This document shows, one piece after another, positions 3,390 through 36,707 of a DNA stretch of 64,000 nt (positions are counted from its first letter, which is position 1; every line of letters starts with the position of its first letter). The stretch is from a virus: positions 34,188 through 98,187 of the IMG/VR virus record IMGVR_UViG_3300029258_001506; one strand, given 5' to 3'. The notes under the pieces were generated by a model that was not told the DNA's origin, ran no database searches, and saw nothing but the letters and a program-made list of their open reading frames with translations. The translations under genes were made by a program, and so were the position numbers.

Positions 3390-3401
3390 GGAGAGTTGAC
3401 G

Positions 3402-4511
3402 ATGACCACCGACAAAATCGAAATCACGATCGACGGCAACTGCGGCAACCTCCCGGCTCCGCGCAACGTGAAGGCGCCGACCGCCGAGGAGCAGGACGCG
3501 ATCGACATGATCAAGGCCGGCGATGTCACCGGCTGGGAGCTGTTCGAGTCCGTGGTCGTCGCGTTCTCCGGTGGCAAGGATTCGCTGGCCGCGGTGTTGC
3601 AGCTCCTCGAGCTGGGGTGTCCGCGGGAGAAGCTCGAGCTGTGGCACCACGAGATCGACGGACGCGAGTCCGTGTCGGCCTTCATGGACTGGCCGATCAC
3701 TCCGGACTATTGCCAGCGAGTCGCCGACGCGCTCGAGCTGCCGCTCCGCTACTCCTGGAAGCAGCACGGGTTCCGCGGTGAGATGCTGCGCAACGACCGG
3801 CCGACCGCTCCGACCTCGTTCGAGTGCGGCGACGGCGAGACCAGGACCACCGGCGGCAAGGGCAAGAACGGAACGCGGATGAAGTTCCCGGCCGTGTCCG
3901 CCGACCTGCAGGCGCGCTGGTGCTCGAGCTACCTCAAGATCGACGTCGCTGCCACCGCTTACCGGAACGACCCGCGTTTCAAGCAGGGCGGCCGGTTCAT
4001 GATGATCACCGGCGAGCGTCGCGAGGAGAGCGCGAACCGCGCGAAGTACGCCGAGACCGAGCGTCACAAGTCGAGCAACTCGAAGCGGACCGTCATCCAG
4101 TGGCGGTCGGTGATCGACTGGACCGAGGCCGAGGTCTGGGAGATCATCGAGCGGCACGGCGTCACCCCTCACCCCTGTTATCGGGCCGGGTTCGGTCGCT
4201 GCTCCTGCGCGTTCTGCATCTTCGGTTCTCCGAACCAGATGGCCGCCGCGGCCGACCTGCTCCCGGAGCAGTTCGACGAGCTGGTCAAGGTCGAGAATGA
4301 GATCGGGTACACGATGCACAGCCGGAAGGTCAAGCGCCAGACGGTCGGCGTCGACCTGCTCGAGTACGTCGCCAGGGGCGAGAGCTTCGCGGCCGACGCT
4401 CCCGCCGAGGTCCGGGAGGCGTGCGGCTCGAGGGAGTACACCGGGCCCGTGCTGACCGACTCCTGGCAGCTCCCGGCCGGGGCGTTCGGCGAGTCGAACG
4501 GGCCCAGCTGA
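3402..4511 (+). CDS. PAPS-reductase / PP-loop ATPase family enzyme (copy 1)
   Basis: 369 aa from the ATG at 3402 (GGGAG upstream; TTG at 3396 is the alternative). AFSGGKDSLAA at residues 54-64 is the PP-loop that activates substrates by adenylation. FMMITGERREESANRA and a cysteine group (RWCSSYLK, then CYRAGFGRCSCAFCIFG) match phage PAPS-reductase/DndC-like sulfurtransferases, which often bind a metal or Fe-S cluster. Known relatives act on sulfur transfer or base modification; in a phage, DNA or tRNA modification is likely but unproven. A second, diverged copy lies at 9386. Last gene of the P1 cassette. Confidence 0.8.
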   Translation: MTTDKIEITIDGNCGNLPAPRNVKAPTAEEQDAIDMIKAGDVTGWELFESVVVAFSGGKDSLAAVLQLLELGCPREKLELWHHEIDGRESVSAFMDWPITPDYCQRVADALELPLRYSWKQHGFRGEMLRNDRPTAPTSFECGDGETRTTGGKGKNGTRMKFPAVSADLQARWCSSYLKIDVAATAYRNDPRFKQGGRFMMITGERREESANRAKYAETERHKSSNSKRTVIQWRSVIDWTEAEVWEIIERHGVTPHPCYRAGFGRCSCAFCIFGSPNQMAAAADLLPEQFDELVKVENEIGYTMHSRKVKRQTVGVDLLEYVARGESFAADAPAEVREACGSREYTGPVLTDSWQLPAGAFGESNGPS

Positions 4512-6990: not shown

Positions 6991-7061
6991 GGCGAAAACT
7001 TTTTTTAAAAAAAGTAAAAAAATAGTTTGACAGGGTCCGGGGTGTGTGTAACACTGTAACC
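6980..7061 (+). promoter_or_regulatory. Promoter block P4
   Basis: Starts inside the end of the previous gene. A/T palindrome (ACTTTTTTTAAAAAAAGT), TTGACA at 7027-7032, 17-bp spacer, AACACT at 7050-7055, six bases and ATGATG at 7062. It is the most diverged copy in the spacer and -10, yet keeps the spacing exactly. Confidence 0.7.
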
Positions 7062-7094
7062 ATGATGAGGGACACACAAACCAAGGAGAGCACG

Positions 7095-7805: not shown

Positions 7806-8108
7806 ATGCCAGCGCGAGCCATACTCACACCGGCCCAGCTCAGCGCCTGGGAGGTGTACGTGAGCGATCCTATCCACCTCGAGGCCGACGACCTCGACGA
7901 CGAGTACGGGCCGACGGCGGCCGAGTACCGGACCGCGGCGGGCTGCCTCCGCGGCCGACGGTTGGTCGTACCGCGCGACCAGTTCGAGCAGGTCGACAGA
8001 GTATTGACCGAGGCGTGCAACAGCGCGGACTCGGAAGGGACGAAGGCCGGGAACGGAGCAGCGCGCGCGCTGGTCAACCTGGCCGACAAGCTACGGAGGA
8101 GCGAGTGA
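7806..8108 (+). CDS. Hypothetical protein
   Basis: 100 aa, helical, acidic in the middle (LEADDLDDEYG). The end of the gene (LADKLRRSE) carries CAAGCTACGGAGGA, which is repeated at 8408. Overlaps the next gene by one base (TGATG). No family recognised. Confidence 0.55.
   Translation: MPARAILTPAQLSAWEVYVSDPIHLEADDLDDEYGPTAAEYRTAAGCLRGRRLVVPRDQFEQVDRVLTEACNSADSEGTKAGNGAARALVNLADKLRRSE
8087..8100 (+). repeat. 14-bp direct repeat, copy A
   Basis: CAAGCTACGGAGGA, identical to 8408-8421. Together the copies flank the small ORF at 8108 and the inverted fragment at 8265-8408. Confidence 0.7.
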
Positions 8109-8335
8109 TGCTGACGAAAGAACAGGCCGAGGAGATCGCCGAGCAGATCAGAGACGAGCTGTCGCAGGCAGCGCAGAACACGCTCGATGATTACAACCAG
8201 ACCGACGCGGACGCGATCGCCGATGCGTTGATCGAGTCGATCCGCGTGAACGGGCTCGACTGCTGTCGTACGAGACGTCGACCCCTGCCGCCAGCGCAGC
8301 GCGAACGATCCGTTCAAAGATCCGCGCCTTGCTGA
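8108..8335 (+). CDS. Small acidic protein, C-terminus replaced by an inserted fragment
   Basis: 75 aa. Residues 1-52 form a plausible helical protein (LTKEQAEEIAEQIRDEL). From base 8265 the frame runs into the inverted copy of a virion gene, so the last 23 residues (Arg/Pro/Cys-rich) are almost certainly not native. The original gene was probably longer. Best treated as a truncated gene. Confidence 0.5.
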   Translation: MLTKEQAEEIAEQIRDELSQAAQNTLDDYNQTDADAIADALIESIRVNGLDCCRTRRRPLPPAQRERSVQRSAPC

Positions 8336-8408
8336 CGTCCTTATTGTACGTGCTGTGCGCCTGCTTGAACCGCGAGAGCGCGTTCTTGATCCGGCCGACG
8401 TCGGCCGC
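8265..8408 (-). repeat. 144-nt inverted fragment of the virion gene at 37470
   Basis: Reverse complement of 37800-37907: 38 nt at one end and 70 nt at the other match exactly, but this copy holds 36 extra nt in the middle. Read on the minus strand, it encodes NKDVSKARIFERIVRAALAA where the large gene has NKGAALAA. This copy therefore looks like the undeleted version. Transcripts from P4 through here would be antisense to the virion mRNA. Confidence 0.9.
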
Positions 8409-8421
8409 AAGCTACGGAGGA
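8408..8421 (+). repeat. 14-bp direct repeat, copy B
   Basis: CAAGCTACGGAGGA, identical to 8087-8100, and supplies the Shine-Dalgarno of the HTH gene at 8426. A preceding GGCCG is shared too, suggesting a microhomology joint. Confidence 0.7.
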
Positions 8422-8425
8422 AGCT

Positions 8426-8665
8426 ATGCCGATCAGGGACGCAGTGATGACGGAGAAGGAGTTCGCCGAAAAGCAGGAGCTGCTCGGATTGAAGGATGCG
8501 GAACTTGCCGAGGAGCTGGGAGTGTCCCGGCCGCTGGTGACCATGATGAGATCCGGCGATCGCAAGGTGACGGCGACGGTCGGCCGGCTGCTCGACCTGC
8601 TGTGCAAGCGGCGCGAACGGCTCGACAGGCAGAAGGCAAAGCGGGAGGAGAAAAAGGCCAGCTAG
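8426..8665 (+). CDS. XRE/Cro-type HTH regulator
   Basis: 79 aa, GGAGGA before the ATG. Residues 17-50 form a helix-turn-helix (LKDAELAEELGVSRPLVTMM, then RSGDRKV). The basic tail (KAKREEKK) could assist DNA contact. Small size fits a phage Cro-like repressor or activator of nearby promoters. Last gene of the P4 cassette. Confidence 0.75.
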   Translation: MPIRDAVMTEKEFAEKQELLGLKDAELAEELGVSRPLVTMMRSGDRKVTATVGRLLDLLCKRRERLDRQKAKREEKKAS

Positions 8666-9385: not shown

Positions 9386-10552
9386 ATGACCACGAACAAC
9401 GACAAGCCGGCGAAGGTGGTGCTCAGCTACGGTATGGGGGTTGACTCGACGGCGATCCTGGTTCGGTGGCTGACCGATCCCAGCTCGAGAGACTTCGACC
9501 TGTCCGACCTCGTCGTCATCACGGCGCAGGTCGGCGACGAGTTCCCGGACACGCAGCGACTCGTCGAGGAGTACATGCTGCCGTTGATGCGCGAGCACGG
9601 CGTCCGGTACGTCCAGCTCAGCCGCAAGGGGCCGCGGGAGGCCGACGGGATCGAGGTACACGACGACACGACCGAGCCGACCAGCTGCTTCACCGAGGGC
9701 GGGGAGTGGACACTGTATTCGGAGATGACCGAGGCCGGGACGGTGCCGCAGTTCCGGACCGGCGCGCGTCGCTGCTCGTTGCACTTCAAAGGCTGGCCGC
9801 TCGACACCTGGCTCCGGAACGAGTTCGGCGACAGGCCGTATCGTCACGTCATGGGGTTCAACGCGGAGGAGCAGAAGCGGATCGACCGCGACAACTCGTA
9901 CAGCACCGAGCAGCGTCAGAGCGAGTACCCGCTCCTCGACTGGAAATGGGGCCGGAAGGAGTGCGAGGACTACCTCGAGAGCTGGGCCGGCGAGCCGTGG
10001 AAAAAATCGTGCTGCACGTTCTGTCCGTTCGCCTGCAACAAGAAGGGGATCGAGGCGCACCTCGAGCGGCTGGCCGAGCACCCGGTCGAGGCCGCCGACG
10101 TCGCCATCATGGAGCGCGTATCGACGGCGCTCAACCCGCGTCAAACGCTGTACAGCGGTCACTCGATCGAGGTGCTGCTCGAGGGTAGCGGGGACCACGG
10201 CGAGGCGCTCAGAATCCGTGACGCGAAGCTCAGCGAGAACGACTGGACTCTGTACCGGATCCGGCGCGCGTTCGCGGCGAAGTGCAACGCAGCTCGAGAG
10301 GTCAAGATCATCACGACGGGCGAGCGCTTCGACGTCGAGGCGGAGCTGGCGATGGTCGCCGACGAGCACGGCCTGGACATCGAGGACGACGGCCGGAGCT
10401 ACCGCGTATGGCTCTCGCGGAAGGGCGAGGTGTTCCCGTGTCCGGAGGAAGTGTTCGTCGTCGCGCCGGCGCTGGCGCGCGAGAAAGTGCGCAAGGGATT
10501 CGACAAGCGGTGGGCCAAGGCACTTGCCGCGGCCGGGGGTTGCGCAGAATGA
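9386..10552 (+). CDS. PAPS-reductase-like PP-loop enzyme (copy 2)
   Basis: 388 aa. LSYGMGVDSTAIL at residues 13-25 is a variant PP-loop (SxGxxS/DST). Conserved features of phage PAPS-reductase-like proteins follow: a Cys/His segment (ARRCSLHFKGWPLD) and KKSCCTFCPFACNKKG, probably an Fe-S or zinc site. The C-terminal 100 residues are a separate mixed domain. It differs from the copy at 3402 in motif form and length, so they likely act on different substrates. Expected role: adenylation-dependent sulfur transfer or nucleobase modification. Last gene of the P5 cassette. Confidence 0.75.
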   Translation: MTTNNDKPAKVVLSYGMGVDSTAILVRWLTDPSSRDFDLSDLVVITAQVGDEFPDTQRLVEEYMLPLMREHGVRYVQLSRKGPREADGIEVHDDTTEPTSCFTEGGEWTLYSEMTEAGTVPQFRTGARRCSLHFKGWPLDTWLRNEFGDRPYRHVMGFNAEEQKRIDRDNSYSTEQRQSEYPLLDWKWGRKECEDYLESWAGEPWKKSCCTFCPFACNKKGIEAHLERLAEHPVEAADVAIMERVSTALNPRQTLYSGHSIEVLLEGSGDHGEALRIRDAKLSENDWTLYRIRRAFAAKCNAAREVKIITTGERFDVEAELAMVADEHGLDIEDDGRSYRVWLSRKGEVFPCPEEVFVVAPALAREKVRKGFDKRWAKALAAAGGCAE

Positions 10553-18967: not shown

Positions 18968-19380
18968 TGAATGTAAAAGGGTACGAGAATCTCGAGCAGC
19001 TGCGCAAGGCACTCGAGCCGTACGGCGACGAGCCGGAGTTCGCCGAGAACGTCGTCGACTCTGGCGACGCGCATCACTTTCTCGAGGTGCTGCTCGAACT
19101 GATCGGGAAGGCGGAGAAGGTCGAGGAACAGCTCGAGCACAGTCGCAAGCACATCCGCGAGAAGGTGTGGGTCGATGCAACACCTGACCGCGAACTGCCC
19201 GCGCGCATCTTGAAAGCGTACATCGACGAAACGCACGACACAGACAACCTGATCGGGCTTGATCCAACAAGCCCGCTGTGCATCGAAATGAACAAGGCAC
19301 GCGACGAACGAAACGCAATCATCCGAGAAGCAATCCGCGCCCTGGCCAGCACCGACAGCGGGAAGGAGGAGGGCGAGTGA
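18967..19380 (+). CDS. Hypothetical protein with shared C-terminal tail (1 of 5)
   Basis: 137 aa. Helical throughout ([20 protein letters not shown]). It ends in [13 protein letters not shown], the first of five adjacent genes ending in a related Ser/Thr-Asp-Ser-Gly/Ala-Glu tail. The C-terminal helix [15 protein letters not shown] precedes the tail. Unknown function; overlaps the next gene by 1 bp. Confidence 0.6.
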
Positions 19381-19997
19381 TGGCAGACAAGAAACAAGTA
19401 GAGCGGCTACGGTCGTCGGTGTCGCGGTGGAACGCATGGCGGGCGCGGTACGGCAAGCCGGTTGACCTGTACAGGGCCGACCTGTCCGGGGCCGACCTGT
19501 ACGGGGCCGACCTGCGCCGGGCCAACCTGACCGAGGCCGACCTGTACGGGGCCGACCTGCGAGGGGCCAACCTGCGCCGGGCCAACCTGTCCGGGGCCAA
19601 CCTGCGCGGGGCCGACCTGTGCGGGGCCGACCTGTCCGGGGCCAACCTGTACGGGGCCCACCTGCGCGAGGCCAACCTGCGCGGGGCGCGCGTCTCCCCG
19701 CCCGCCCTGCTGCTGGCCCGGTGGGGCGACGTGTCCGACGACCTATGCCGCGATCTGATGCGGTACGACGTGGTAAACCACCCTGGCGGCGAGGCAGCGT
19801 TCCAGCAATGGGCGGACGGTGGCGGCTGCCCGTACGGGTCGACGCATTGGTTGCGCGCTGCGAACTTCGCCGAGCGCCGCGAGTGCTGGTCGCCCGGCCC
19901 GTCGCCGTCAGCGCTGGAGCTTTGCGAGCGGCTGATCGCTGAGAAATGCAACCACACCGCCAGCACCGACAGCGGGGAGGGGGCGGGTGATGAATAA
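19380..19997 (+). CDS. Pentapeptide-repeat protein with shared tail (2 of 5)
   Basis: 205 aa. Residues about 28-104 are consecutive A(D/N)Lxx pentapeptides ([18 protein letters not shown]...), which fold as a right-handed quadrilateral beta helix. Such proteins can mimic DNA and inhibit gyrase or act as scaffolds. N-terminal [20 protein letters not shown] and a C-terminal cysteine-containing part surround it. It ends in [13 protein letters not shown]. The DNA is also internally repetitive, in GCC-GAC-CTG units. Confidence 0.8.
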
Positions 19998-24172: not shown

Positions 24173-24255
24173 CGGTTAACACTGACATCAACAACGACGG
24201 CAACTTAGAGGAAGGTTGAGAGATGGGTTGCGACCATGATTTTGGGAAGGAGAAC

Positions 24256-24591
24256 ATGATGCGAGAACGAACGAGCGGAAAAGAGTTAGCGAAGGCGATC
24301 GGCCTGGCGTTGCTGCCGTGGGTCGTGCTGCTCGCGGTGGCACTCGACAGCGGCTGCGTCGACGACGGGTGCAAGTCCGGGTCGACGAGGTGTCGGAACA
24401 ACCGCGTCGAACAGTGCGATTACGAGGACAACGACGGCGACGCCACCGACGGCGATTGGGGGATGGTCATCAACTGCGACGAGTACGGCTGGATCTGTTG
24501 CGACGGGTTTCCGTACGGCGGCGAGGACGAGCACAACTGCGTCCCGGCGCCGACCTGCGAGGCGTGGTACGCCGACGGGGGGCTGTCATGA
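24256..24591 (+). CDS. Cysteine-rich exported protein (possible lipoprotein)
   Basis: 111 aa from the ATG at 24256 (GAAGGAGAA upstream; ATG 24223 is less likely). Residues 13-36 are a hydrophobic signal segment (LALLPWVVLLAVALDSGC), with Cys placed like a lipobox although the -3 residue is not ideal. After it comes a cysteine-rich domain (CKSGSTRCRNNRVEQC ... WICCDGFP). The motif 'C..G.TRC..N.VE.C' is known from Myxococcota lipoproteins. Could be a surface protein made in the infected cell, or a host gene carried by the phage. Confidence 0.55.
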   Translation: MMRERTSGKELAKAIGLALLPWVVLLAVALDSGCVDDGCKSGSTRCRNNRVEQCDYEDNDGDATDGDWGMVINCDEYGWICCDGFPYGGEDEHNCVPAPTCEAWYADGGLS

Positions 24592-24833
24592 TCGCGCCGC
24601 TCCTCGCTCCGATCGTTCACTGGTTCATGCGGCTGGTCGGGAAAGAGGTCGAGAAGAAGCTCGACAAGCCGAAGAAGAAAAAGAAGAAGCCCGCCGACCC
24701 GGTACCGAAGCGCAGGCACAAGACGATCGACGAAGTGTCCGCCGAGTCGCGTGAGCGGATGAAGAACGTCAAGCGCGACGTCGGTCCACCGGTGGCGCTC
24801 GACAACAACCCGTACGACGAGGGAGGCGAGTAG
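24588..24833 (+). CDS. Small membrane-associated basic protein
   Basis: 81 aa, ATGA overlap with the previous gene. Residues 2-18 are hydrophobic (IAPLLAPIVHWFMRLVG), followed by a strongly basic run (KKLDKPKKKKKK). Together with the upstream exported protein it might serve a cell-envelope role; no lysis family is recognised. Confidence 0.5.
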   Translation: MIAPLLAPIVHWFMRLVGKEVEKKLDKPKKKKKKPADPVPKRRHKTIDEVSAESRERMKNVKRDVGPPVALDNNPYDEGGE

Positions 24834-24834
24834 C

Positions 24835-25446
24835 ATGTTCAAGGCGAGACCATCTGACGTCCGCGCGCTGGTGCGGCACCTCGAGAAGAAGCACGACGCG
24901 AAGGTCGTCACCAAGAATGACACCGCGGAGATCAAGGCGGTCGCCGACGACCTCCGCCTCTTGGGGATCAAGAATCCGGCCTGGTTCCTCGACAACTTCT
25001 CGTTCACTCTCGGCCGGTACGTTGTGCTCTCGTTCGAACCTGGCGAGACGGGCAAGGGAGCGATCCCGCTGTACGTCCAGATCGCGGTCATCTGTCACGA
25101 GTTCCATCACATCCGGCAGTATCACACCGATTCCGACTTCATACTGCTGTACGTCGGCAGCTCGGCGAAGCGGGCCCGGTACGAGGCGCGAGCCGACCAC
25201 GTCTACATGGAAATGTACTACTGGCAGCGAGAGCGGCTCGTGAGTCCGACCGCGCTGGCGGCGAAGCTCCCGGCCTATAAGGTCACCAAGGGCGACACCA
25301 AGTACTTCGTCAAGCACCTTCGGATCTGCGCGGCGGTGGTCAGGCAGGGAGAGGTCAGGCACAACCTGATCAGCCGACAGGCGCAGGACTTCTTGAAGCG
25401 TCGCGCTCGGCGGCGGTCTCGGCGGCGCACGCTCAAAGCGGCCTAG
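24835..25446 (+). CDS. HExxH putative metallopeptidase
   Basis: 203 aa. HEFHH at residues 88-92 is a classical zinc HExxH motif within a helix (IAVICHEFHHIRQY), and YEARADHVYMEMYYW (about 116-130) supplies a plausible third ligand (Glu) as in gluzincins. N- and C-termini are basic. May process a protein, or may be a fold relic; no substrate can be assigned. It ends 3 bp before the ParB-like gene. Confidence 0.6.
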   Translation: MFKARPSDVRALVRHLEKKHDAKVVTKNDTAEIKAVADDLRLLGIKNPAWFLDNFSFTLGRYVVLSFEPGETGKGAIPLYVQIAVICHEFHHIRQYHTDSDFILLYVGSSAKRARYEARADHVYMEMYYWQRERLVSPTALAAKLPAYKVTKGDTKYFVKHLRICAAVVRQGEVRHNLISRQAQDFLKRRARRRSRRRTLKAA

Positions 25447-25448
25447 CG

Positions 25449-26207
25449 ATGGCGACGGCGAAGAAGAAGGTCGGCAAGCGGACCGCGGCGACGGTGAAGC
25501 GCGGACGAGGCAAGAACGCCAAGCCGGTCGAGCAGGAAGTCGACCTCACCATCGCCGACGGGATCGCGGTACACTGTGCGTGCGACTCCGTCGTCGACGT
25601 GACCCAGCTCGTACCGCACCCGCGCAACCCGAACAAACACCCGGAGAAGCAGATCCTGCTCCTGGCGAAGCTGATCTTGAACCAGGGCTGGCGTGCGCCG
25701 ATCACGGTGTCGAGGCGGTCCGGGTTCGTGATCCGCGGGCACGGCCGGCTCGAGGCTGCGATCAAGCTCGGCGTCGCCGAGGTGCCGGTCGATTACCAGG
25801 ACTATCCGGACGAGGCGAGCGAGTGGGCCGACCTGATCGCTGACAACCGGATCGCCGAGCTGTCGAACGTCGACTTCGGCACGCTCAAGGATCTAGTCGT
25901 CGAACTGGACACCGGCGCGTTCGATATGGACCTCACCGGGTTCGACGCGGACGCTCGGGAGGATCTGCTGACCTACGTCCCGACGGGGAGCGGCAAGGAC
26001 GGCGACGACGACGGGCCCGGCGACCCGGATAAGTGGTCCGACTTCGACAAGGACAACGACGGGATGGCTGGGCTCGAGGAAGTCGACATCGTGATCGTCG
26101 TGCCGAAGAAGCACGTCGAGGCCGTGCGCGCCTGGCTGGCCGACGGAGAGCAGGACACCGGGCCCGGTATGGGTAAGGGTGTGATGAAGCGATGCGGATT
26201 GCTCTAG
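25449..26207 (+). CDS. ParB/Srx-fold nuclease-like protein next to terminase
   Basis: 252 aa. A basic, Lys-rich N-terminus, then VTQLVPHPRNPNKHPEKQIL and GFVIRGHGRLEAAIKLG, the core of ParB-like domains (P.NPN.h...q...l; G...i.GH.R..A...LG). Members bind DNA and can cut it or hydrolyse nucleotides; those next to terminases may help packaging or DNA modification. An acidic linker and a C-terminal alpha/beta part follow. Overlaps the terminase gene by 16 bp. Confidence 0.75.
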   Translation: MATAKKKVGKRTAATVKRGRGKNAKPVEQEVDLTIADGIAVHCACDSVVDVTQLVPHPRNPNKHPEKQILLLAKLILNQGWRAPITVSRRSGFVIRGHGRLEAAIKLGVAEVPVDYQDYPDEASEWADLIADNRIAELSNVDFGTLKDLVVELDTGAFDMDLTGFDADAREDLLTYVPTGSGKDGDDDGPGDPDKWSDFDKDNDGMAGLEEVDIVIVVPKKHVEAVRAWLADGEQDTGPGMGKGVMKRCGLL

Positions 26208-27931
26208 TCGACAGCCAGCGCAAAGCGAGCCCAGCTCCGACACGACCGCGCGAAAGTGAACGCCAAGTGATGCAGGCCGCGGTCGCAGTCGGGGCGCTTC
26301 ACGAGCGGTATAGGCCGCCTGTAGGCTACCTCGAGAAGTGCGACCCTGACAACGCGATCTCTCCGGCCAGTTCGCTCGAGGCGGCGGCACGCACCGCGGC
26401 GCTCGACAAGCTCCGGATCCAGCAGGCGCGCGAGTCCTTCCAGCACTTCGTCGAGTACGCGATCACCGACGACCAGATCGGTGAGCCGCTGGTTGTGCAG
26501 TGGTATCAGGACGAGTGGTCGGCGGCGATGGACAACGAGAAGCGTCTGCTCGTCATCGCTCCGCGGTACCACGGCAAGACATCGATCATCGTGGCGCGCG
26601 CCGTCTGGGAGCTGGGGCGAAACCCGAACCTCCGGATCAAGATCGTCTGCTCGTCGGACGGTAAGGCGATGGACCGGCTGTTCGAGGTCAAGCAGCTGAT
26701 CGAGGACAACGACCGAGTCCGGAAGGTGTTCCCGAATCTGGTTCCCGCGGACGAGGGGAGCTGGACGAAGCACAAGCTGATCGTCAGGCGTACGGCGCTA
26801 TCTCGAGACGCCAGCATCGAGGCGCTCGGCATCACCTCGACGGCCACCGGCGGCCGGGCCGACCTGCTGATCGCCGACGACGTCGTCGACCGGCGGAACG
26901 CGCTCACGATGCCGGCGCTCCGCGAGCAGATCAAGCAGGCTTGGAAATCTGACTGGACCCAGCTCCTCGATCCCGAGTCTCGGATCTGGTACATCTGCAC
27001 GCTCTGGCACAAGGACGACCTGTCGCACGAGCTGATCGAGAACGAGGCGTACGCGGTGGTCTCCTACTCCGTCGACGAGAACTTCGGTTCGCTCTGGCCG
27101 GCGAAGTGGTCCGAGGCCGCGCTGCGCGAGCGCTTCGTCGAGATCCAATCCATCGAGTTCAACCGCGCTTTCCGGAACATCGCGCAGGACGAGTCGATCA
27201 CTCCGGTCAAGCAACACTGGTTGCAGTTCAAGCCGGTGTCTGAGTTCCCGCCGATCGAGCAGCTGCACTTCCTCACCAGCTACGACACCGCGAAGGGGCT
27301 CAAGGAGTCGAACGACTTCACGGCCGAGGTCGTGATCGCGGTGCACCGGGAGAGCAAATCTATCTACGTCGTCGACGCGTCGCACGACCGACAGACGCTG
27401 GCGCAGCAGGCGAGCTGGGTATTCAACTCGTACACCAGATACAACCCGTTCAAGATCCGGATCGAGGACGTCGGTCTCGCTGGCTTGTACTCCTGGGTCG
27501 TCGAGCAGTACCCGGACCTCGAGGGGATCACCGATCCGGTCGTGCCCGGGTCGAACAAGTACCAGCGACTCGTCGACGTGACGCCGTACCTCGAGCGGGG
27601 CCAGGTCGTGTTCGCCTCTCACCTCAACCCTCACGGCTCGGACTACATACCCGGCCGGGGGAACCTGATCGGAGAGCTGACCGACTTCCCGATCGGCAAG
27701 CACGACGACATGGTCGACGCGTTCAGTCAGGCGCTCGACGGCGCGCGGAGATACCTGCTTGACCGCTGGGCCGAAGCGGGAGAAGATAAGAACCAGATCA
27801 AGGTCGAGGCGATACGTAGCAAGGGGCCGAAGATTTACGAGGAGTCGCCGGACGAGGACACCGAGGGACAGGGCCCGGTCTACTACACGTCGGGCGGCCG
27901 ACCGCGACGAAGGCCGCCGTCAACGAAATAG
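26192..27931 (+). CDS. terL: Large terminase subunit (TerL)
   Basis: 579 aa. Walker A APRYHGKT (123-130), Walker B LLIADD (225-230), a Q/coupling motif region (CTLWHKDD) and an RNase H-fold nuclease with SYDTAKG (Asp365) and HDDMVDA (504-510). It drives DNA packaging into the procapsid with ATP and cuts the concatemer. A small disordered N-terminus of about 75 residues precedes the ATPase. Starts inside the ParB-like gene, so both are coupled. Confidence 0.93.
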   Translation: MRIALVDSQRKASPAPTRPRESERQVMQAAVAVGALHERYRPPVGYLEKCDPDNAISPASSLEAAARTAALDKLRIQQARESFQHFVEYAITDDQIGEPLVVQWYQDEWSAAMDNEKRLLVIAPRYHGKTSIIVARAVWELGRNPNLRIKIVCSSDGKAMDRLFEVKQLIEDNDRVRKVFPNLVPADEGSWTKHKLIVRRTALSRDASIEALGITSTATGGRADLLIADDVVDRRNALTMPALREQIKQAWKSDWTQLLDPESRIWYICTLWHKDDLSHELIENEAYAVVSYSVDENFGSLWPAKWSEAALRERFVEIQSIEFNRAFRNIAQDESITPVKQHWLQFKPVSEFPPIEQLHFLTSYDTAKGLKESNDFTAEVVIAVHRESKSIYVVDASHDRQTLAQQASWVFNSYTRYNPFKIRIEDVGLAGLYSWVVEQYPDLEGITDPVVPGSNKYQRLVDVTPYLERGQVVFASHLNPHGSDYIPGRGNLIGELTDFPIGKHDDMVDAFSQALDGARRYLLDRWAEAGEDKNQIKVEAIRSKGPKIYEESPDEDTEGQGPVYYTSGGRPRRRPPSTK

Positions 27932-27940
27932 GGAGGAACG

Positions 27941-28735
27941 ATGTTCACCAACTTGACCGTAGACTGGCCGAGGGACGGTGCAGGTGACATCGCGGTCGGC
28001 GACAGCTACGCTTCGTCGAACCGCGACGCCGACACCGCACTCAACAACACGACAACGGCTGTCGGCCAGTCGTTCACGGGCAACGGACAGCAGCTCGACG
28101 CGGTCCAGTTCGTGCTCTCGAAGTCGAACAGTCCGACGGGGAACGCAGTAGCGAAAATCTACGCGCACACCGGGTCGTTCGGCACCACCGGAAAGCCTAC
28201 CGGCGACGCGCTGGCGACCTCGAAGGCGGTCGACGTGTCGACCCTCACGGGGACGCCGACGCTGACGACGTTCTCCTTCCCATCGGACGAGGTGATCACG
28301 CTCGCCAACGGGACGAGGTACTTCGCGGTGATCGAGTACTCCGACGGCGATGCGTCGAACACGGTGGACGTCGGACACGACGCCTCGAGCCCGTCGCACG
28401 GCGGGAACCTGGCAACGTACGCGGCGGCGGCCTGGTCGGCGGACGCGACGAAGGACGGCTGCTTCGTCATCGCCTCCGCGGGAGTTCCGCTCGACGTCTC
28501 CGGCCTGGACCGGCTGACCTTCGACGTCGACATCAACGGCAACACGATCACCGGCCAGCTTCAAGGGTGTTACTCGACGAGCGACGGCACGACCTGGACC
28601 GACATCAACTCCGTCGGCGCCGACGCCGGCGGGGACATCTCCGCACACTACGCACGAGTTCGGATCCGACTGACCGCGTTCACGGCCGGGACCGGCGGCG
28701 AGCCGCGCTGCGAGGTCAACGGGAATCGCATCTAG
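27941..28735 (+). CDS. Beta-rich virion protein with inserted jelly-roll domain
   Basis: 264 aa. Residues 1-15 and about 185-264 align with the next protein (MFTNLTV ... DVSGLDRLTFDVDINGNTITG ... HYARVRIR). Between them is an insert of about 150 residues (VGQSFTGNGQQLDAVQFVL ... RYFAVIEYSDGD) resembling choice-of-anchor/jelly-roll domains found in surface proteins. Probably a head- or portal-associated decoration or fibre. Confidence 0.6.
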   Translation: MFTNLTVDWPRDGAGDIAVGDSYASSNRDADTALNNTTTAVGQSFTGNGQQLDAVQFVLSKSNSPTGNAVAKIYAHTGSFGTTGKPTGDALATSKAVDVSTLTGTPTLTTFSFPSDEVITLANGTRYFAVIEYSDGDASNTVDVGHDASSPSHGGNLATYAAAAWSADATKDGCFVIASAGVPLDVSGLDRLTFDVDINGNTITGQLQGCYSTSDGTTWTDINSVGADAGGDISAHYARVRIRLTAFTAGTGGEPRCEVNGNRI

Positions 28736-28749
28736 CAGGGGAGAGCAGG

Positions 28750-29055
28750 ATGTTCATCAACTTGACCGTCCCGATGCCAGTGAGCACCGACGGCACCGGT
28801 GAAGGGGAAGCCGTCGACGTGGGAGGGATGGAAAATCTCACGTACGACATGAAGCTCGACGGGGCCGTGCTGACGGGCAACCTCGAGGGCAGCTACAGTT
28901 CCGGCGGACAGCCGAACGATCCGAACTGGACAACCATCGCGGCGATCGCCGACGGCGGTGGAGATGTGACCGCGGCGTACGCGCGGGTCCGCCTCAACGT
29001 CTCGGCCTACACCTCCGGGACACCGCGCGTCGAGTTCAACGGGGTTCGGCGATGA
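28750..29055 (+). CDS. Short paralogue of the previous beta-rich protein
   Basis: 101 aa from the ATG at 28750 (GAGAGCAGG upstream). Starts MFINLTV and ends in AAYARVRLNVSAYTSG, aligning with the ends of the 264-aa protein without its insert. Probably the ancestral form. Overlaps the portal gene by 4 bp. Confidence 0.6.
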   Translation: MFINLTVPMPVSTDGTGEGEAVDVGGMENLTYDMKLDGAVLTGNLEGSYSSGGQPNDPNWTTIAAIADGGGDVTAAYARVRLNVSAYTSGTPRVEFNGVRR

Positions 29056-30968
29056 CGGGAAAGCCGAGCAAGCGACAGCGGAGACAGGCGCGGACAAGGG
29101 AGGCGCTCAAGGGTGACCGCTCGGCGCGCGTCGCGCTGGTCAAGGCCCGCGTAATCTCCGGCGCGTCGGTCGACGAGGTTGCGGCCATCCAGTCGATCAC
29201 CGACGCCGAGCGGTTCTACAACGAGCACGACGCGATCATTCCGCCGTACGACCCGGTCGGGTTGATGTCCGCGTACGAGTTCTCGAACGCGCTGCGCCAG
29301 AACATCGACGCGTATGTCCAGAACATCGAGGGGTTCGGGCATCACTTCAAGGCACGGATCGACCTCGACGCCGATGGCGCGCTCGAGCGGGTCCGTGAGG
29401 CGATGATCGTCGAGCAGTATCACGACCAGCTCGCCGAGCAGGACGCGGCAGCAGACGAGGCCAGGGCGCGCGGAGAGGAACCTCCGGACGAGGACGAGGA
29501 TCAGCCGGACAACGAGACACAGATCGCCGTCCCGACCGACGAGGAAGTCAAGAAGCGGATCGAGGAGCTGCGCGGGGAGATCCGTCTGCAAAAGATGGTG
29601 GCGCAGGCGTGGTTCGAGAACGCCGGCGCGGACGGGGTCTCGTTCTCCGAGCTGCGCAAGCGCAAGCGCGCCGAGCAGGAGATCATCGGACACGGATGCT
29701 GGGAGGCCGTGCGCGACAACCGCGGCCGGCTGCGGCGCTTCGCTCACGTCCCGGCCTTCACCGTCTACCCGGTCAAGGACGACGGGGAGCGGGTCGAGTC
29801 CGAGGAAGTCGAGCGGATCTCTCCGATCGCCACGCGGACGTTTACGGTGCAGCGCTTCTTCCGGAAGTACGTCCAGCGGGTGTCGGACAAGGCGGTGTTT
29901 TTCAAGGGGCTGGGAGATCCGCGGATCGTCAGCCGCAAGACGGGCAAGACGTACGAGTCGACCAACGACCTCGAGAAGGCGGAAGGCAAGAAGGCCCAGC
30001 TCGCTCACGAGATGAAGTACTTCGACGTGTTCAGCCCGCGCACGCCGGCCGGTGTGCCGAGGTGGATCGGGAACCTGCTCGCGGTGCTCGGGAGCCGCGC
30101 GGCCGACGAGGTCAACTACCTGCTATTCGATCACAAGTCTGTCCCGCCGGGGATCTTCTTCGTCCGCGGTGGCAAGTTGGGAGACCAGACGAAAAACCAG
30201 CTGCAGGAGTTCATCGAGGATGACCTGCAGGGGCGCGACGCGTTTCACAAGATCCTGATCTGCGAGGTGCCAGCGATCACCGGGCGGCCGGGGGATACGC
30301 CGGTGATCCCGGACATCCAGTGGCAGTCGTTGATGGCCGACCAGATCAAGGACTCGACGTTCAGCGCGTACGACCAGGACAACCGGAACAAGCTCGGCGG
30401 TTCGTTCCGGAATCACCCGATGGTCCGCGGCGAGACGGTCGAATCGATGAACCGCGCGATCGCGTGGGCCGTACTCGACTTCTCCGATCAGCAGGTCTAC
30501 GCACCGGAGCGCAGGCCGTTCGACTGGTTCATCAATCGAGAGGTGATGCCGGAGATCGGGTGCACGCTGATCGAGTTCATGAGCAACGGCCCGTCGACGA
30601 CCAACCTCGAGCAGGTCTCGAAGGCGACCGACATCTTCGCCAAGCACGGCGCGTTCGTGCCGAACGAGGTCCGAGCGATCGCCTCCGAGGCTCTCGACCG
30701 CGACCTCGATCCGATCGACGCCGAGTGGGCCAGCCAGCAGCCGATGACGATGACGCTGGTCGGCATTGTGCCGAACGCGAACCCGAACGACGAGGACGAG
30801 CTACCGGAGGAGATGAAGGCGAAGTATGCCGCGCTCGAGGCGAAGCTGCGCGACTACGGGTTCAAGCTCGCTGGGTACAAGTCCGTCGGACTCGACGACG
30901 TCAAGCCGGGGTCTCCGGCCGAGGATGTCGGCGACGTGGTGATCGATGAAGAAGCGGCCGACAGCTGA
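29052..30968 (+). CDS. Portal protein
   Basis: 638 aa. Located directly after terminase, with the domain order of phage portals: basic N-terminus, mixed wing domain (KYVQRVSDKAVFFKGLGD), a stem/crown region, and the late-occurring motif YDQDNRNKLGGSF seen in PBSX-like portals. The dodecamer forms the DNA channel and docks terminase and connector. The C-terminus is acidic and overlaps the next gene. Confidence 0.85.
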   Translation: MTGKPSKRQRRQARTREALKGDRSARVALVKARVISGASVDEVAAIQSITDAERFYNEHDAIIPPYDPVGLMSAYEFSNALRQNIDAYVQNIEGFGHHFKARIDLDADGALERVREAMIVEQYHDQLAEQDAAADEARARGEEPPDEDEDQPDNETQIAVPTDEEVKKRIEELRGEIRLQKMVAQAWFENAGADGVSFSELRKRKRAEQEIIGHGCWEAVRDNRGRLRRFAHVPAFTVYPVKDDGERVESEEVERISPIATRTFTVQRFFRKYVQRVSDKAVFFKGLGDPRIVSRKTGKTYESTNDLEKAEGKKAQLAHEMKYFDVFSPRTPAGVPRWIGNLLAVLGSRAADEVNYLLFDHKSVPPGIFFVRGGKLGDQTKNQLQEFIEDDLQGRDAFHKILICEVPAITGRPGDTPVIPDIQWQSLMADQIKDSTFSAYDQDNRNKLGGSFRNHPMVRGETVESMNRAIAWAVLDFSDQQVYAPERRPFDWFINREVMPEIGCTLIEFMSNGPSTTNLEQVSKATDIFAKHGAFVPNEVRAIASEALDRDLDPIDAEWASQQPMTMTLVGIVPNANPNDEDELPEEMKAKYAALEAKLRDYGFKLAGYKSVGLDDVKPGSPAEDVGDVVIDEEAADS

Positions 30969-31341
30969 GCCGATCATCGAGGGCCCGTTCGTGCTGCTGC
31001 CGAGGCCGGGCAGACTCCGGAAGATCAGCCCGCGGCCTGGTGAGATCCTGCGACACCTCGACGAGAGCGGCAACCCGTCGGGCTCGTTCATCATGTTGTG
31101 TCCGTACTGCGGGGTGTGGATTCGGTTCGTCAACGTTGCGCAGGGACCGAACGAGAAGCCGACGATGCGCGACAAGATAACCTGCACCTGTCGGACGCGG
31201 TGCGCGCGCACGTTCCGGATCCGATCGGGGACGGTGCAACAGGACTGGCCGGATCCGCGGATGCAGGTGGAGCTACCGCCAGAACTCAGACAGGCAAAGG
31301 GTGTCTTTGCAGCGCCCGTGCTGAACGTAAAGGGAGGATAG
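30946..31341 (+). CDS. Zinc-binding protein
   Basis: 131 aa, overlapping the portal gene by 23 bp. MLCPYCGVWIRFVN and TCTCRTRCARTFRI form a zinc site. A Pro/Arg-rich start precedes it. Possibly a head-assembly accessory; no family recognised. Confidence 0.6.
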   Translation: MKKRPTAEPIIEGPFVLLPRPGRLRKISPRPGEILRHLDESGNPSGSFIMLCPYCGVWIRFVNVAQGPNEKPTMRDKITCTCRTRCARTFRIRSGTVQQDWPDPRMQVELPPELRQAKGVFAAPVLNVKGG

Positions 31342-31342
31342 G

Positions 31343-31789
31343 ATGCCGAAGAAGGCCATCAACCAGACCACCGACGAGCAGATCGCCAAGGCCGACGAGA
31401 AGGCGGCGGCGGAGAAGGCCGACACCGAGAAGCGAGAGGCGGCGAAGCCGAAGCCGAAGCCGGAGCCGAAGAAGGCGGCGCCGAAGCCGAAGCCGATCGT
31501 CAAGGCGGCGCTCACCGCCGAGGAAGCTGGGAACCTGCTCGGGTTCCAGGAGAACACGATGCTCGAGCTGTTCGCCGAGGGGCGGCTGCCGGCGGTCCGC
31601 ACCGAGGACGGCTGGCAGATCAGCGAGGAGCTGGTGAAGCGCGCGGCGTCCGGTGAGTTCAAGCAGAAGAACGAGAAGTTCCCGGCGATCTTCGTTCCCG
31701 GTATGGGACTCCGGCTCAAGCAGTACCACGGGCGCCGGATGTGGATCGGGCCGAAGAAAACCGCGCGCTGCCCGTCGTTCCTGCAGTAG
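31343..31789 (+). CDS. MerR/excisionase-type HTH protein with Lys/Ala-rich N-terminus
   Basis: 148 aa. Residues 10-55 are Lys/Glu/Ala/Pro-rich (KPKPKPEPKKAAPKPKP); about 57-95 form a winged helix (LTAEEAGNLLGFQENTMLEL ... GWQISEE) as in excisionase/DNA-binding domains. The C-terminus is beta-rich. May bind DNA during packaging or regulate late genes. Confidence 0.6.
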   Translation: MPKKAINQTTDEQIAKADEKAAAEKADTEKREAAKPKPKPEPKKAAPKPKPIVKAALTAEEAGNLLGFQENTMLELFAEGRLPAVRTEDGWQISEELVKRAASGEFKQKNEKFPAIFVPGMGLRLKQYHGRRMWIGPKKTARCPSFLQ

Positions 31790-31791
31790 CG

Positions 31792-32061
31792 ATGCCACCG
31801 GCCGCGGCGTTCTTCTTTGGCTTTGCAGCCGCGCTGATCATCGTCGGCGCGGTGCAGCTGTTCCGCTGGATCCGATGGCGGAGCAAGCGCGACGACGTGC
31901 TCGACTCGATGGCGCGCGTCCGCGTCGAGTTGTGGAACCTGCACAGCCTGTTCCGCCTCGGAGTCAAGGTCGACCGTCGGGCGCGATCGCAGATGACCGA
32001 ACTCGAGCGCGCAGCTCACGCGGTCAAGGTGGTTTGGCGGAGGCTGTCAAGCCGGAGGTGA
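31792..32061 (+). CDS. Single-span membrane protein
   Basis: 89 aa from the ATG at 31792. An N-terminal membrane helix (AAFFFGFAAALIIVGAVQLF) is followed by a long basic helix (ARVRVELWNLHSLFRLG). The topology would suit an i-spanin or a regulator of lysis, but no lysin is nearby to confirm it. Confidence 0.55.
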   Translation: MPPAAAFFFGFAAALIIVGAVQLFRWIRWRSKRDDVLDSMARVRVELWNLHSLFRLGVKVDRRARSQMTELERAAHAVKVVWRRLSSRR

Positions 32062-32065
32062 TGCG

Positions 32066-32443
32066 ATGACGATACCCGCGCAGGTACCACCGGGGGTCGA
32101 CCCGGTACAGTGGCACTCCGTCGTCCCAAACGACCTGAGCTGGCAGATGCTCGCCGGGCTGTTCGTGGCGATGGCCGCGCTGCTTACGTACGGGATGCTC
32201 GCCGTGATCCGTCGCTGGCGTACTGCCGGCTGGATCAAGACGCGGGCCGCGCTCCTGCTCGAGGTGTTCGTGTACGGCTCAGCTCCGGCGTTCGGGATGC
32301 TCGGCGGCTGGTTGTTCTGGCATTGGGGGGCCGGGCTCTGCTTCGCAACCGTCGGGAGCTGGGCGTCGCCGTGGTTCATGAAGTTCATCAACCGTTACGC
32401 CGAGCGCCGGCTGGCGAGGAAGTCGCAGATCGGCGATGAGTAA
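32066..32443 (+). CDS. Possible holin (multi-span membrane protein)
   Basis: 125 aa. Two to three hydrophobic segments (LAGLFVAMAALLTYGMLAVI, FVYGSAPAFGMLGGWLFWH, CFATVGSWASPWFM) with charged ends. Size and topology fit class I/II holins. Placement among head genes is unusual and no endolysin is seen, so this is a guess from topology. Confidence 0.45.
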   Translation: MTIPAQVPPGVDPVQWHSVVPNDLSWQMLAGLFVAMAALLTYGMLAVIRRWRTAGWIKTRAALLLEVFVYGSAPAFGMLGGWLFWHWGAGLCFATVGSWASPWFMKFINRYAERRLARKSQIGDE

Positions 32444-32636
32444 CGCGCCGAGCTTCCTGGCGATGCAGGCCGACTGCCCGTACTGCGACGAGGTGCTCGA
32501 CCTCGACGGTGACGACTACCACTGCGCGGCGTGCGGGAGGAGCTGGTCGTTCGACGACCTGTTCAGCCACCGGTACAAGTCGTTCGAGGACGGCCGGCTC
32601 GCCGGGTTCTCCGTGGAACTGCTCGAGCATGATTAG
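32436..32636 (+). CDS. Small zinc-ribbon protein
   Basis: 66 aa. CPYCDEVLDLDGDDYHCAAC is a complete zinc ribbon, followed by an acidic tail. It overlaps the previous gene by 8 bp and the next gene by 8 bp. Confidence 0.6.
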   Translation: MSNAPSFLAMQADCPYCDEVLDLDGDDYHCAACGRSWSFDDLFSHRYKSFEDGRLAGFSVELLEHD

Positions 32637-32931
32637 GGAACGACAGAAGCTGATCGAGCGAGTCCGATCTCTGCTCCGCCTCGCAGACCCAGCTCGTAAC
32701 CCGGAGGAGAACGAGCGGACCTCCGCGCGGACCGAGGCCCAGCGGCTGATCACCAAGCACCAGCTCACGCGGGCCGAGGTGCTCGGACAACCGCGGCCGA
32801 TGCCGCGGCCGATGCCGTGGCCGGTGAACATCTACCGCGGCCCAATGTGGTACCCGATGGCGAGCACCGCGACGACGTCGACCACCTCGAACACCGTCGG
32901 GACGGTGTTCGTCAGGGTCACGATCGGGTGA
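32629..32931 (+). CDS. DUF2786-domain protein
   Basis: 100 aa. RVRSLLRLADPARNPEENER followed by EAQRLITKHQL matches the DUF2786 helix pair. The C-terminus is Pro/Thr-rich (QPRPMPRPMPWPVN). Function of the domain unknown. Overlaps the MuF-like gene. Confidence 0.65.
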   Translation: MIRERQKLIERVRSLLRLADPARNPEENERTSARTEAQRLITKHQLTRAEVLGQPRPMPRPMPWPVNIYRGPMWYPMASTATTSTTSNTVGTVFVRVTIG

Positions 32932-34271
32932 TGCACTCCCACGAACACACATACTCTGTGCCGGCCGAGGGGTTCGCAACCCTTTGGCCGAAGTGCGCGG
33001 CCGGCGACGATCTGCGCACGGCCTGGGCTGTGGCCGAGGTCGATCCGCGGTACCCGCGCGCGGCGTTCGGGTTCGCACTCGAGCAGGGGGACACGAGGAT
33101 CCGGCTCGAGGCCCAGCGCGTCGACCGGGCTCGGATGGTCGCGCTCTCGATGCTCGACTCCGGTCCGGTGACGCTGTACGAGGCGATCGCGGCCGGGCAC
33201 GGTGACCAGCTCCTATACAGGCGACTCGAGCAGCTGGACAAGTACGAACCGTCAGAAGCGCCAGGAGCCGCTCTCCCGGTCTCCTCGGCTGGCGTGATAC
33301 TCGCCAAGGGGGCGGCCGCTCCGTCGGTTCTGGAAGCGGCTGCGCAGTCTCTCGCGGGGAATCTGTCGAAGCTCGACGCGCGCTGGTCAAAACCGCTGCT
33401 CAAGAAGTTCCTGGCCCAGCTCGACATCGATTGGGGCAACGCGACCGGCGAGCAGATCGACCAGGCGTTCGTCAAGGCCGACCGCGTGATTCGGAAGGCG
33501 CAGTTCGAACCGCTGATCGCTCCCTGGATCAAGCGGACGACCGTCGAGCTGTGGCGGACGGCGACGGGAACGCGCGACTACATCCGGCAGACGTTCCTCC
33601 CGCGGGTCGGACCGACGTTCTCGATGCCGGACCGGCGCGCGATCCAGCAGATCGCAACCCAGCAGGGATGGTTCCTCCGCGGGCAGATGGGTCTCCGCTC
33701 CGACAGGATCACGGCCCGCGGCCGGGAGATTGTGCAGTCCGGTCTCGCACAGGGGCTCGGCCGCGGGCAGATCGGGCGCGACTTGAAGCTGGCGCTCCCG
33801 GATCTCTGGAACCGGTACGGCAACAATTACGCCAGGGTCGTCGCGTCTGTCGCGGTCAACCGCGCGCGATCCTGGGGCGAGGTGCTGAGCTACCGCGACG
33901 CGGGGATCGAGTACCTCGAGCTGCAGGCCGTGCTAGATGAAGCGACGACGGTGTTCTGTCGGTTCATCGACGGACAGATCATCTCCGTCGACAACTGCTT
34001 CGACCTGCTCGAGAAGGGCGCCGCGGTGCAGAAGCCGGAGGACATCAAGCGGGTCAACCCGTTCATGGTCCAGCGGCGCGACCAGGAGACAGGGCAGCGG
34101 TACATCGCAACGGCCAACGGGACCAGGCTCGCCGACATCGTCCGCTCTGGTGTTGGCATCTCGAGCCCGCCGTCATCGATGACCGACGCTCGCGGGACGT
34201 TCAACGCTCGCATGATGGGGAACCAGCTCCCGAACGCGTTGATCGGTGCTCCTCCGTATCACCACTTGTGA
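32931..34271 (+). CDS. MuF-like head morphogenesis protein
   Basis: 446 aa; ATG 32931 (GTG 32928 alternative). The C-terminal region contains AVLDEATTVFCRFIDGQIIS (about 334-353), the D..T..vC...DG signature of Mu gpF/SPP1 gp7 proteins, which are minor capsid proteins packaged with the portal and needed for DNA ejection or head assembly. The N-terminal half is helical. Position after portal and before scaffold supports this. Confidence 0.75.
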   Translation: MHSHEHTYSVPAEGFATLWPKCAAGDDLRTAWAVAEVDPRYPRAAFGFALEQGDTRIRLEAQRVDRARMVALSMLDSGPVTLYEAIAAGHGDQLLYRRLEQLDKYEPSEAPGAALPVSSAGVILAKGAAAPSVLEAAAQSLAGNLSKLDARWSKPLLKKFLAQLDIDWGNATGEQIDQAFVKADRVIRKAQFEPLIAPWIKRTTVELWRTATGTRDYIRQTFLPRVGPTFSMPDRRAIQQIATQQGWFLRGQMGLRSDRITARGREIVQSGLAQGLGRGQIGRDLKLALPDLWNRYGNNYARVVASVAVNRARSWGEVLSYRDAGIEYLELQAVLDEATTVFCRFIDGQIISVDNCFDLLEKGAAVQKPEDIKRVNPFMVQRRDQETGQRYIATANGTRLADIVRSGVGISSPPSSMTDARGTFNARMMGNQLPNALIGAPPYHHL

Positions 34272-34289
34272 AGGACAATCACTGTTCCG

Positions 34290-35015
34290 GTGGAACAGAT
34301 TTTTCGAGTCCCGGCCGGATACCAGGCAAGGTCGCTGGCCGGTGCAATACCGTCGGCCAAGACACCCCAGCTTCCGCCGCGGCCGACGACGGTGGCCGGG
34401 CTGCCGGCGGCGATGTTCGCGGCGCCGGCGGTCGCGTCTCGCGCGTTCACTCCTGAGCAGATCCAACGACCGGCGCTGCTCGTTCCGGAGCCGACACCGG
34501 ACTTCCCGACGATGACCGGAGAGCTACCGCCGGACGTCGACGATCCGTTCGAACAGTACGGTCTCATTGAGAACGTGTCCATCCGGCGACAGGCGATCCG
34601 GCGGATGCAAGACGAGGCCAAGCGGATCAACGAGCGGCTGTCACAGGCGGTCGACAAGAACGGGGGACAGGCGCTCACGATCAAGCGCAAGGGAGAGATC
34701 ATCCGCGACGGGTTCAAGGGCAAGGAGAAGCCACCGACACCGGAGAGGGAGAAGGCCCGCGGCATGACGGACGAGGCGCTCGCGGCGGCGCAACGGATGT
34801 TCGCGTTCGACGGGGATCCGTTCGTCGACAACGGTGTCGAACTGCTCCTCGGTCGCTGGGGCGACATCTCCTGCGGCGGGGAGCCACGCCAGCTCGAGGC
34901 CGTCGTCCAGGCCGCGCTCGAGCCGGGCCGGGAGGCGACGCTGGCGATGCTCTGGGATGTCAACCCGGAACACGTCGGGATCGTCGCCGCCGCGGCGAAG
35001 GGGGCGTTCCGGTGA
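34290..35015 (+). CDS. Hypothetical virion or assembly protein
   Basis: 241 aa, GTG start. Long Pro-rich N-terminus (AKTPQLPPRPTTVAGLP), acidic middle (DDPFEQYGLIENVS), then a basic coiled coil (RRMQDEAKRINERL) and an acidic C-terminus. It overlaps the next gene by 4 bp. No family recognised. Confidence 0.5.
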   Translation: MEQIFRVPAGYQARSLAGAIPSAKTPQLPPRPTTVAGLPAAMFAAPAVASRAFTPEQIQRPALLVPEPTPDFPTMTGELPPDVDDPFEQYGLIENVSIRRQAIRRMQDEAKRINERLSQAVDKNGGQALTIKRKGEIIRDGFKGKEKPPTPEREKARGMTDEALAAAQRMFAFDGDPFVDNGVELLLGRWGDISCGGEPRQLEAVVQAALEPGREATLAMLWDVNPEHVGIVAAAAKGAFR

Positions 35016-35329
35016 AGATGAAGATCCCGATCCGTCTGGTGCGGACGAAGAAGCGCGTCGCGACGATGCACTTCAAGGGCGGCCGGAGGCAAGGTGTCGG
35101 CCGAGTGATCGCCGAGCAGGGACACCGGGAGGACGCTCAGAAAATCCGCGGGATCATCGCTGCGCGGCGCGACCTGCTCCGCGCTGAGTTTGTGTCCGAG
35201 GACAAGCGCGTCAGGGGCTGGCGCGGGTTCGACGGGACGCTCAACGCGCTGGTGATTTCTCTCGGTGCGATCGGAATGGAAGTAGAACCGGCCGCGATTG
35301 TGTGGCCTAGCAAAAGGGGCGAACGATGA
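35012..35329 (+). CDS. Hypothetical protein
   Basis: 105 aa, GTG start at 35012 (ATG 35018 alternative). Basic N-terminus (IPIRLVRTKKRVATMHFKGG), a helical middle and a beta C-terminus. No motif recognised; overlaps the next ATG. Confidence 0.5.
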   Translation: MKMKIPIRLVRTKKRVATMHFKGGRRQGVGRVIAEQGHREDAQKIRGIIAARRDLLRAEFVSEDKRVRGWRGFDGTLNALVISLGAIGMEVEPAAIVWPSKRGER

Positions 35330-35700
35330 CGGACTTCATCACCAGGCCGAGCGGGATCATGGTCCCGGCCAGATTCAACGGGAGCTGGGCAGACGGATTG
35401 ATGCTTGACAACGACCAGAAGAAGCGTGTTATCTTTGGTTGCATCAAGGTCGTCAGGGACTCATTCGACGACGATCCGAAACTCACGGGGGCGGTCCGAG
35501 AGGGTTCGGTTGCTGAGTCGGTCATCAAAGAGCGGTTCAAAATCTGCGAGAAATGGGTACGGACCCTGCGCGGAGAACTACACTGGCCGCTCCGAAAAAT
35601 TCTGGACATGCTGCCGCGCGCACTTCGCGCGGAGTTGGACGGCGAGACATTCGTGCCAACCGATCGTCACGGCTGGCGCCCGAACGCAGAAGTGAGGTAA
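35326..35700 (+). CDS. Hypothetical protein
   Basis: 124 aa. Basic and aromatic (ERFKICEKWVRTLRGELHWP). Between the MuF-like and scaffold-like genes, so probably involved in head assembly. No family recognised. Confidence 0.5.
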   Translation: MTDFITRPSGIMVPARFNGSWADGLMLDNDQKKRVIFGCIKVVRDSFDDDPKLTGAVREGSVAESVIKERFKICEKWVRTLRGELHWPLRKILDMLPRALRAELDGETFVPTDRHGWRPNAEVR

Positions 35701-35703
35701 ACG

Positions 35704-36705: not shown

Positions 36706-36707
36706 TC

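Follow-up and report, generated by a model that had tools for sequence, protein, structure and literature searches.

Within the window, the 64,000-nucleotide stretch of viral DNA analysed here, we observed that an early gene cassette carries an inverted duplicate of part of a virion gene some 29 kb downstream. The features that define this arrangement are as follows.

6997-7081, plus strand: repeated promoter-like element of family D3, upstream of the cassette
8108-8264, plus strand: small early ORF, 52 codons followed by TAA without the insert, open to 8335 with it
8265-8408, minus strand: early copy, duplicating a virion-gene segment in inverted orientation over 144 nt and in its full-length version (exact alignment and match to sister contig L004)
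8303-8338, minus strand: 36 nt, or 12 codons, that the early copy shares with the sister virion gene and that the virion gene of the window lacks
8409-8425, plus strand: right flank, AAGCTACGGAGGAAGCT, with the ribosome-binding site ahead of ATG 8426
8426-8665, plus strand: next early gene, encoding an HTH protein (Pfam HTH_3, E = 1.5e-4, slightly below the curated cut-off)
37470-38444, plus strand: virion gene V, flanked by the genes of an XkdF-like head maturation protease and of the major head protein; in this record its DUF6582-like domain is broken
37800-37869, plus strand: donor block 1, 70 nt (exact alignment)
37870-37907, plus strand: donor block 2, 38 nt (exact alignment)

The window's right end coincides with the end of the 98,187-bp IMG/VR record, a metagenome assembly, from which it is taken. 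The termini of that record are identical over 144 nt (1-144 and 98044-98187, the latter at window 63857-64000) and the overlap is spanned by an open frame some 2,200 codons long, so we regard the record as a circularly closing phage contig. The terminal overlap equals the insert in length, and the sister contig L004 stops at the same base. Because the genome encodes terminase, portal, tape measure and sheath-like proteins, the phage is likely to be myovirus-like. A protein search against phage records returned no match.

Exact alignment showed that 8265-8408 is the reverse complement of 37800-37907 in blocks of 38 and 70 nt, separated by a 36-nt gap, with 0 mismatches. This agrees with the first-pass annotation, which had described a 144-nt antisense copy with 38 and 70 identical nt and 36 nt present only at the early site. 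The annotation was also correct that the copy is in frame with the virion protein: the reverse reading, GRIKNALSRFKQAHSTYNKDVSKARIFERIVRAALAAGVDVSYD, shares the frame of the ORF at 37470-38444. The 70-nt block is the longest inverted repeat of the whole 98,187-bp record, followed by the 38-nt block of the same pair and then by a repeat of 22 nt. An exact inverted repeat of 70 nt lies far beyond what chance would be expected to produce. The point at which the 36 nt are missing from V falls between 37869 and 37870. As in a templated insertion, the source is kept elsewhere in the same genome and is near-identical to the copy.

The insert sits directly after codon 52 of the small early ORF, which has a coding-like G+C content by codon position. 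When the insert is removed and 8264 is joined to 8409, the sequence reads TGC|TAA, followed by a ribosome site (GGAGG) and ATG 8426. A stop codon would occupy this first position by accident with a probability of about 5%. The restored join looks as an untouched operon junction would be expected to look. The first 13 nt of the right flank recur upstream near 8085. Comparing the flanks by eye, we found no obvious microhomology at 8264/8265, 8408/8409 or 37869/37870. A mobile element or insertion sequence was considered and rejected: the insert consists purely of virion-gene sequence, has no target duplication at its edges and carries no element features such as terminal inverted repeats or a transposase gene. 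Searches of IMG/VR and genome collections with the early flanks retrieved neither an uninterrupted nor a second inserted allele. No homologues of the 8108-8264 protein were found, the search with the 8426 protein gave only 26-residue HTH matches, and the contigs of relatives held no homologues of the flanking early proteins.

The element at 6997-7081 is probably the one called P4 in the first-pass annotation. It belongs to a set of promoter-like elements, TTGACA...GTGTCACACTGTAACCATGATGA with an A/T-rich upstream stretch, found at 2983, 4542, 5763, 6997, 8708 and 11217, and outside the window at record positions 26038 and 27499. These elements are identical over up to 67 nt and take in ATGATG and the first codons, so they perhaps include a shared leader.

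To place the missing residues, we gathered V homologues from MCP-anchored relatives. Both neighbours of V are readily assigned, the XkdF-like protease to Pfam Peptidase_S78_2 (E = 9.8e-15) and the head protein to phrog_1623 (E = 1.5e-73). The 12 residues are present and ungapped in all homologues with the same middle domain (L123, L124, L126, L127, L136 and L137), and only the V of the window is without them. We count these as five distinct relatives (L123, L124, L126, L127 and L137), L136 and L124 looking identical in the middle domain. The annotation had stated that the virion protein lacks the 12 residues and had proposed this alignment of relatives; the alignment confirms the lack and gives it a direction, in that the early copy holds no addition and V has lost sequence relative to its relatives. 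On this alignment the 36 nt are the ancestral state. Since both the relatives and the sister contig carry the 12 residues, the V of the window appears to have lost the 36 nt and the early copy to keep the older version. The shortened V would be either derived or wrongly assembled. Across V homologues in general (L109, L117-L137), the N- and C-terminus are conserved and the middle domain is exchangeable, being DUF6582-like, of another type (G003, L130) or absent.

The DUF6582 profile (PF20223) scored 20.5 bits against the full-length domain (E = 6e-4, profile positions 17-82 of 83), below the curated cut-off of 27.3 bits, and 17.9 bits against the 47-aa early copy alone; it gave no score against the deleted version of the domain. 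The copied domain is thus likely to be a remote relative of DUF6582, and we do not claim membership of the family. The fold predicted for the domain of L126 assigns the deleted residues to helix 84-100, which is modelled with moderate confidence (pLDDT about 71-85).

Two contigs from metagenome 3300017989 cover much of the window, L005 corresponding to 24245-37848 and L004 to 37821-64000. Compared with window 24245-64000 (39.7 kb), they show 0 substitutions, and the sole difference is the 36 nt carried by the sister V. By this measure, they are the same strain as the window phage. The two contigs overlap by 28 nt and both stop within the repeat: L004 begins exactly 123 nt from the repeat's right edge, its positions 1-123 matching window 8387-8265 with no mismatch, and L005 finishes 49 nt from the left edge. 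JGI papers give k values up to 123 for MEGAHIT and up to 127 for metaSPAdes, and contig ends at repeats carry the maximum k. The 123 nt thus equal the last k in the MEGAHIT setting used by JGI, although the assembler used for sample 3300017989 itself is not documented. We sought to calibrate the k of the sister assembly from neighbouring contigs, of which IMG/VR held none, and from circular ends, where G003-G005 showed no end overlap.

A plain-unitig model predicted no break in V when the early copy was absent. Full-length copies at both places fitted the L004 end at k = 123, and a full-length V with a shortened early copy fitted both sister ends, at k = 49 only. We also simulated assembly at the read level with the MEGAHIT k-list (with 60 runs for each condition and toy reads free of errors). 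With a full V and a full early copy, 8-10% of runs gave a V-right end at K and a shorter V-left end inside the repeat. With the early copy absent or shortened, V was mostly unbroken and 0 ends fell at K. Because simulated breaks of the observed kind need a full-length early copy, the insertion is probably real in the second assembly. These data support, and do not prove, that the insertion exists there alongside a V of full length.

We favour, with modest confidence, the reading that a 144-nt segment of V was inserted by templated synthesis at an early gene junction and persists as a young passenger copy that keeps the ancestral form. The V segment would have been copied, in inverted orientation, into the junction by illegitimate template-switch-like synthesis or repair, and a template-switch-like insertion would be the simplest mechanism. 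As the copies are identical, with no substitution separating them, the event would be recent. The copy would be a passenger, adding 23 codons to the upstream small ORF and leaving the downstream ribosome site intact, and the inverted duplication is probably neutral. The early copy would retain the segment's full-length ancestral form, and the 36-nt lack of the donor may represent a deletion allele in the sample, or the assembler may have followed a minor or wrong route through the repeat. Both copies, the ancestral 36 nt, the clean join and the full-length donor of the second assembly are seen in the sequences, and from these we infer the mechanism, the neutrality and why the donor lacks 36 nt. 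The insertion itself is read from one assembled sequence and from indirect contig-end evidence in a second assembly; that evidence favours a real early insertion, and the deletion in V is uncertain. By chance, the donor deletion would fall inside the duplicated segment at about 0.1% of positions. This improbable coincidence suggests that the deletion is linked to the duplication through an assembly effect, ascertainment or exchange between the copies. Ascertainment could act because two identical 144-nt copies break assemblies, so that a record that is long and unbroken would tend to stem from a sample, an allele or a path with unequal copies.

The same coincidence could arise if the true genome had a full-length V and an uninterrupted early junction, a V fragment having been misplaced and V closed without its 36 nt. 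What the donor lacks lies exactly within the duplicated piece, relatives conserve the 12 residues, the early site is perfect once the insert is removed, the insert junctions are blunt, and the insert and the terminal overlap of the record share their length of 144 nt. However, without an early copy the sister V contig should neither break in the repeat nor start 123 nt from its edge, and graph assemblers do not normally make junction k-mers that are absent from the reads, so we consider such an artefact unlikely. That the window assembly was simply mis-phased at k of at least 49 was rejected by reasoning: the junction k-mers of the deleted V would not exist. We judge it more doubtful still that both states are real, with the inverted copies recombining so that the 36-nt piece moves between V and the early copy, either by two inversions through different blocks or by gene conversion; one inversion alone would split V. 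A full V together with an early copy lacking the 36 nt, the reciprocal of the window, does reproduce both sister ends at k = 49, and every other compared position is identical between window and sister. However, none of the JGI settings that we found uses k = 49, and k up to 123 is better fitted by a full-length early copy.

The first-pass annotation had offered two interpretations, a recombination remnant from before the deletion or an antisense element that pairs with late mRNA. The former is largely right, given the 12 residues in the relatives and in the sister V and the clean early junction without the insert. For the latter, only the geometry speaks in favour. RNA reading through from the early promoter would pair with the virion mRNA and delay its expression; the orientation is right, the complementarity is perfect over 70 + 38 nt here and over 144 nt against a full-length V, and an early promoter-like repeat stands upstream of the copy. 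However, the target would be the interior of V rather than its start, and a scan of the relatives' records G015 and G003 found no second V copy in either. The transcript fold of the copy was no better than that of shuffles (z = -0.35), so an unusual RNA fold was rejected. The stretch had no Rfam match and no promoter-like site of its own, by a consensus scan that also misses the repeated early elements. We therefore consider a functional antisense RNA very unlikely. Least credible of all is a working pair, in which the early RNA would silence V until the early promoter shuts and recombination would toggle a 12-residue helix of the head protein.

Templated insertions and template-switch inverted duplications have been described for yeast and cancer genomes, for example in PMC11724301 and PMC8421209. 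As in such cases, a short segment would here have been copied to a new site with its source kept, in inverted form. Those events are typically very short or microhomology-primed, whereas the present one is 144 nt long, comes from ~29 kb away, shows no visible microhomology and lies in a phage. The early copy also resembles the silent cassettes of gene conversion systems such as pilS/pilE, where a partial, non-expressed copy differs by one block from the expressed gene. Unlike those, it is a single copy with one indel only, and it is the expressed gene that has lost sequence. Phages and plasmids also have trans-encoded antisense RNAs with perfect complementarity to an mRNA from elsewhere in the genome, as the early copy has to that of a distant gene; here, however, we found no dedicated promoter or terminator and no counterpart in the two relatives scanned, and the gene interior would be targeted.

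The observation is real and its cause most likely ordinary. A phage duplication would then have been caught with both copies still identical. The pair of same-strain assemblies offers a small case study and a caution, in that one assembly is broken, and the other perhaps distorted, by a short inverted duplicate. If the antisense or the exchange reading were true, the locus would be an unusual device for early-to-late control or protein variation; the evidence points elsewhere.

The window holds two further features of note. The early region encodes two PAPS-reductase-like genes at 3396-4508 and 9386-10552 (PF01507, E = 3e-12; phrog_424, E = 8e-21), and a 15-nt repeat array at 19278-19997 encodes a pentapeptide-repeat-like protein built of GADL/GANL units.
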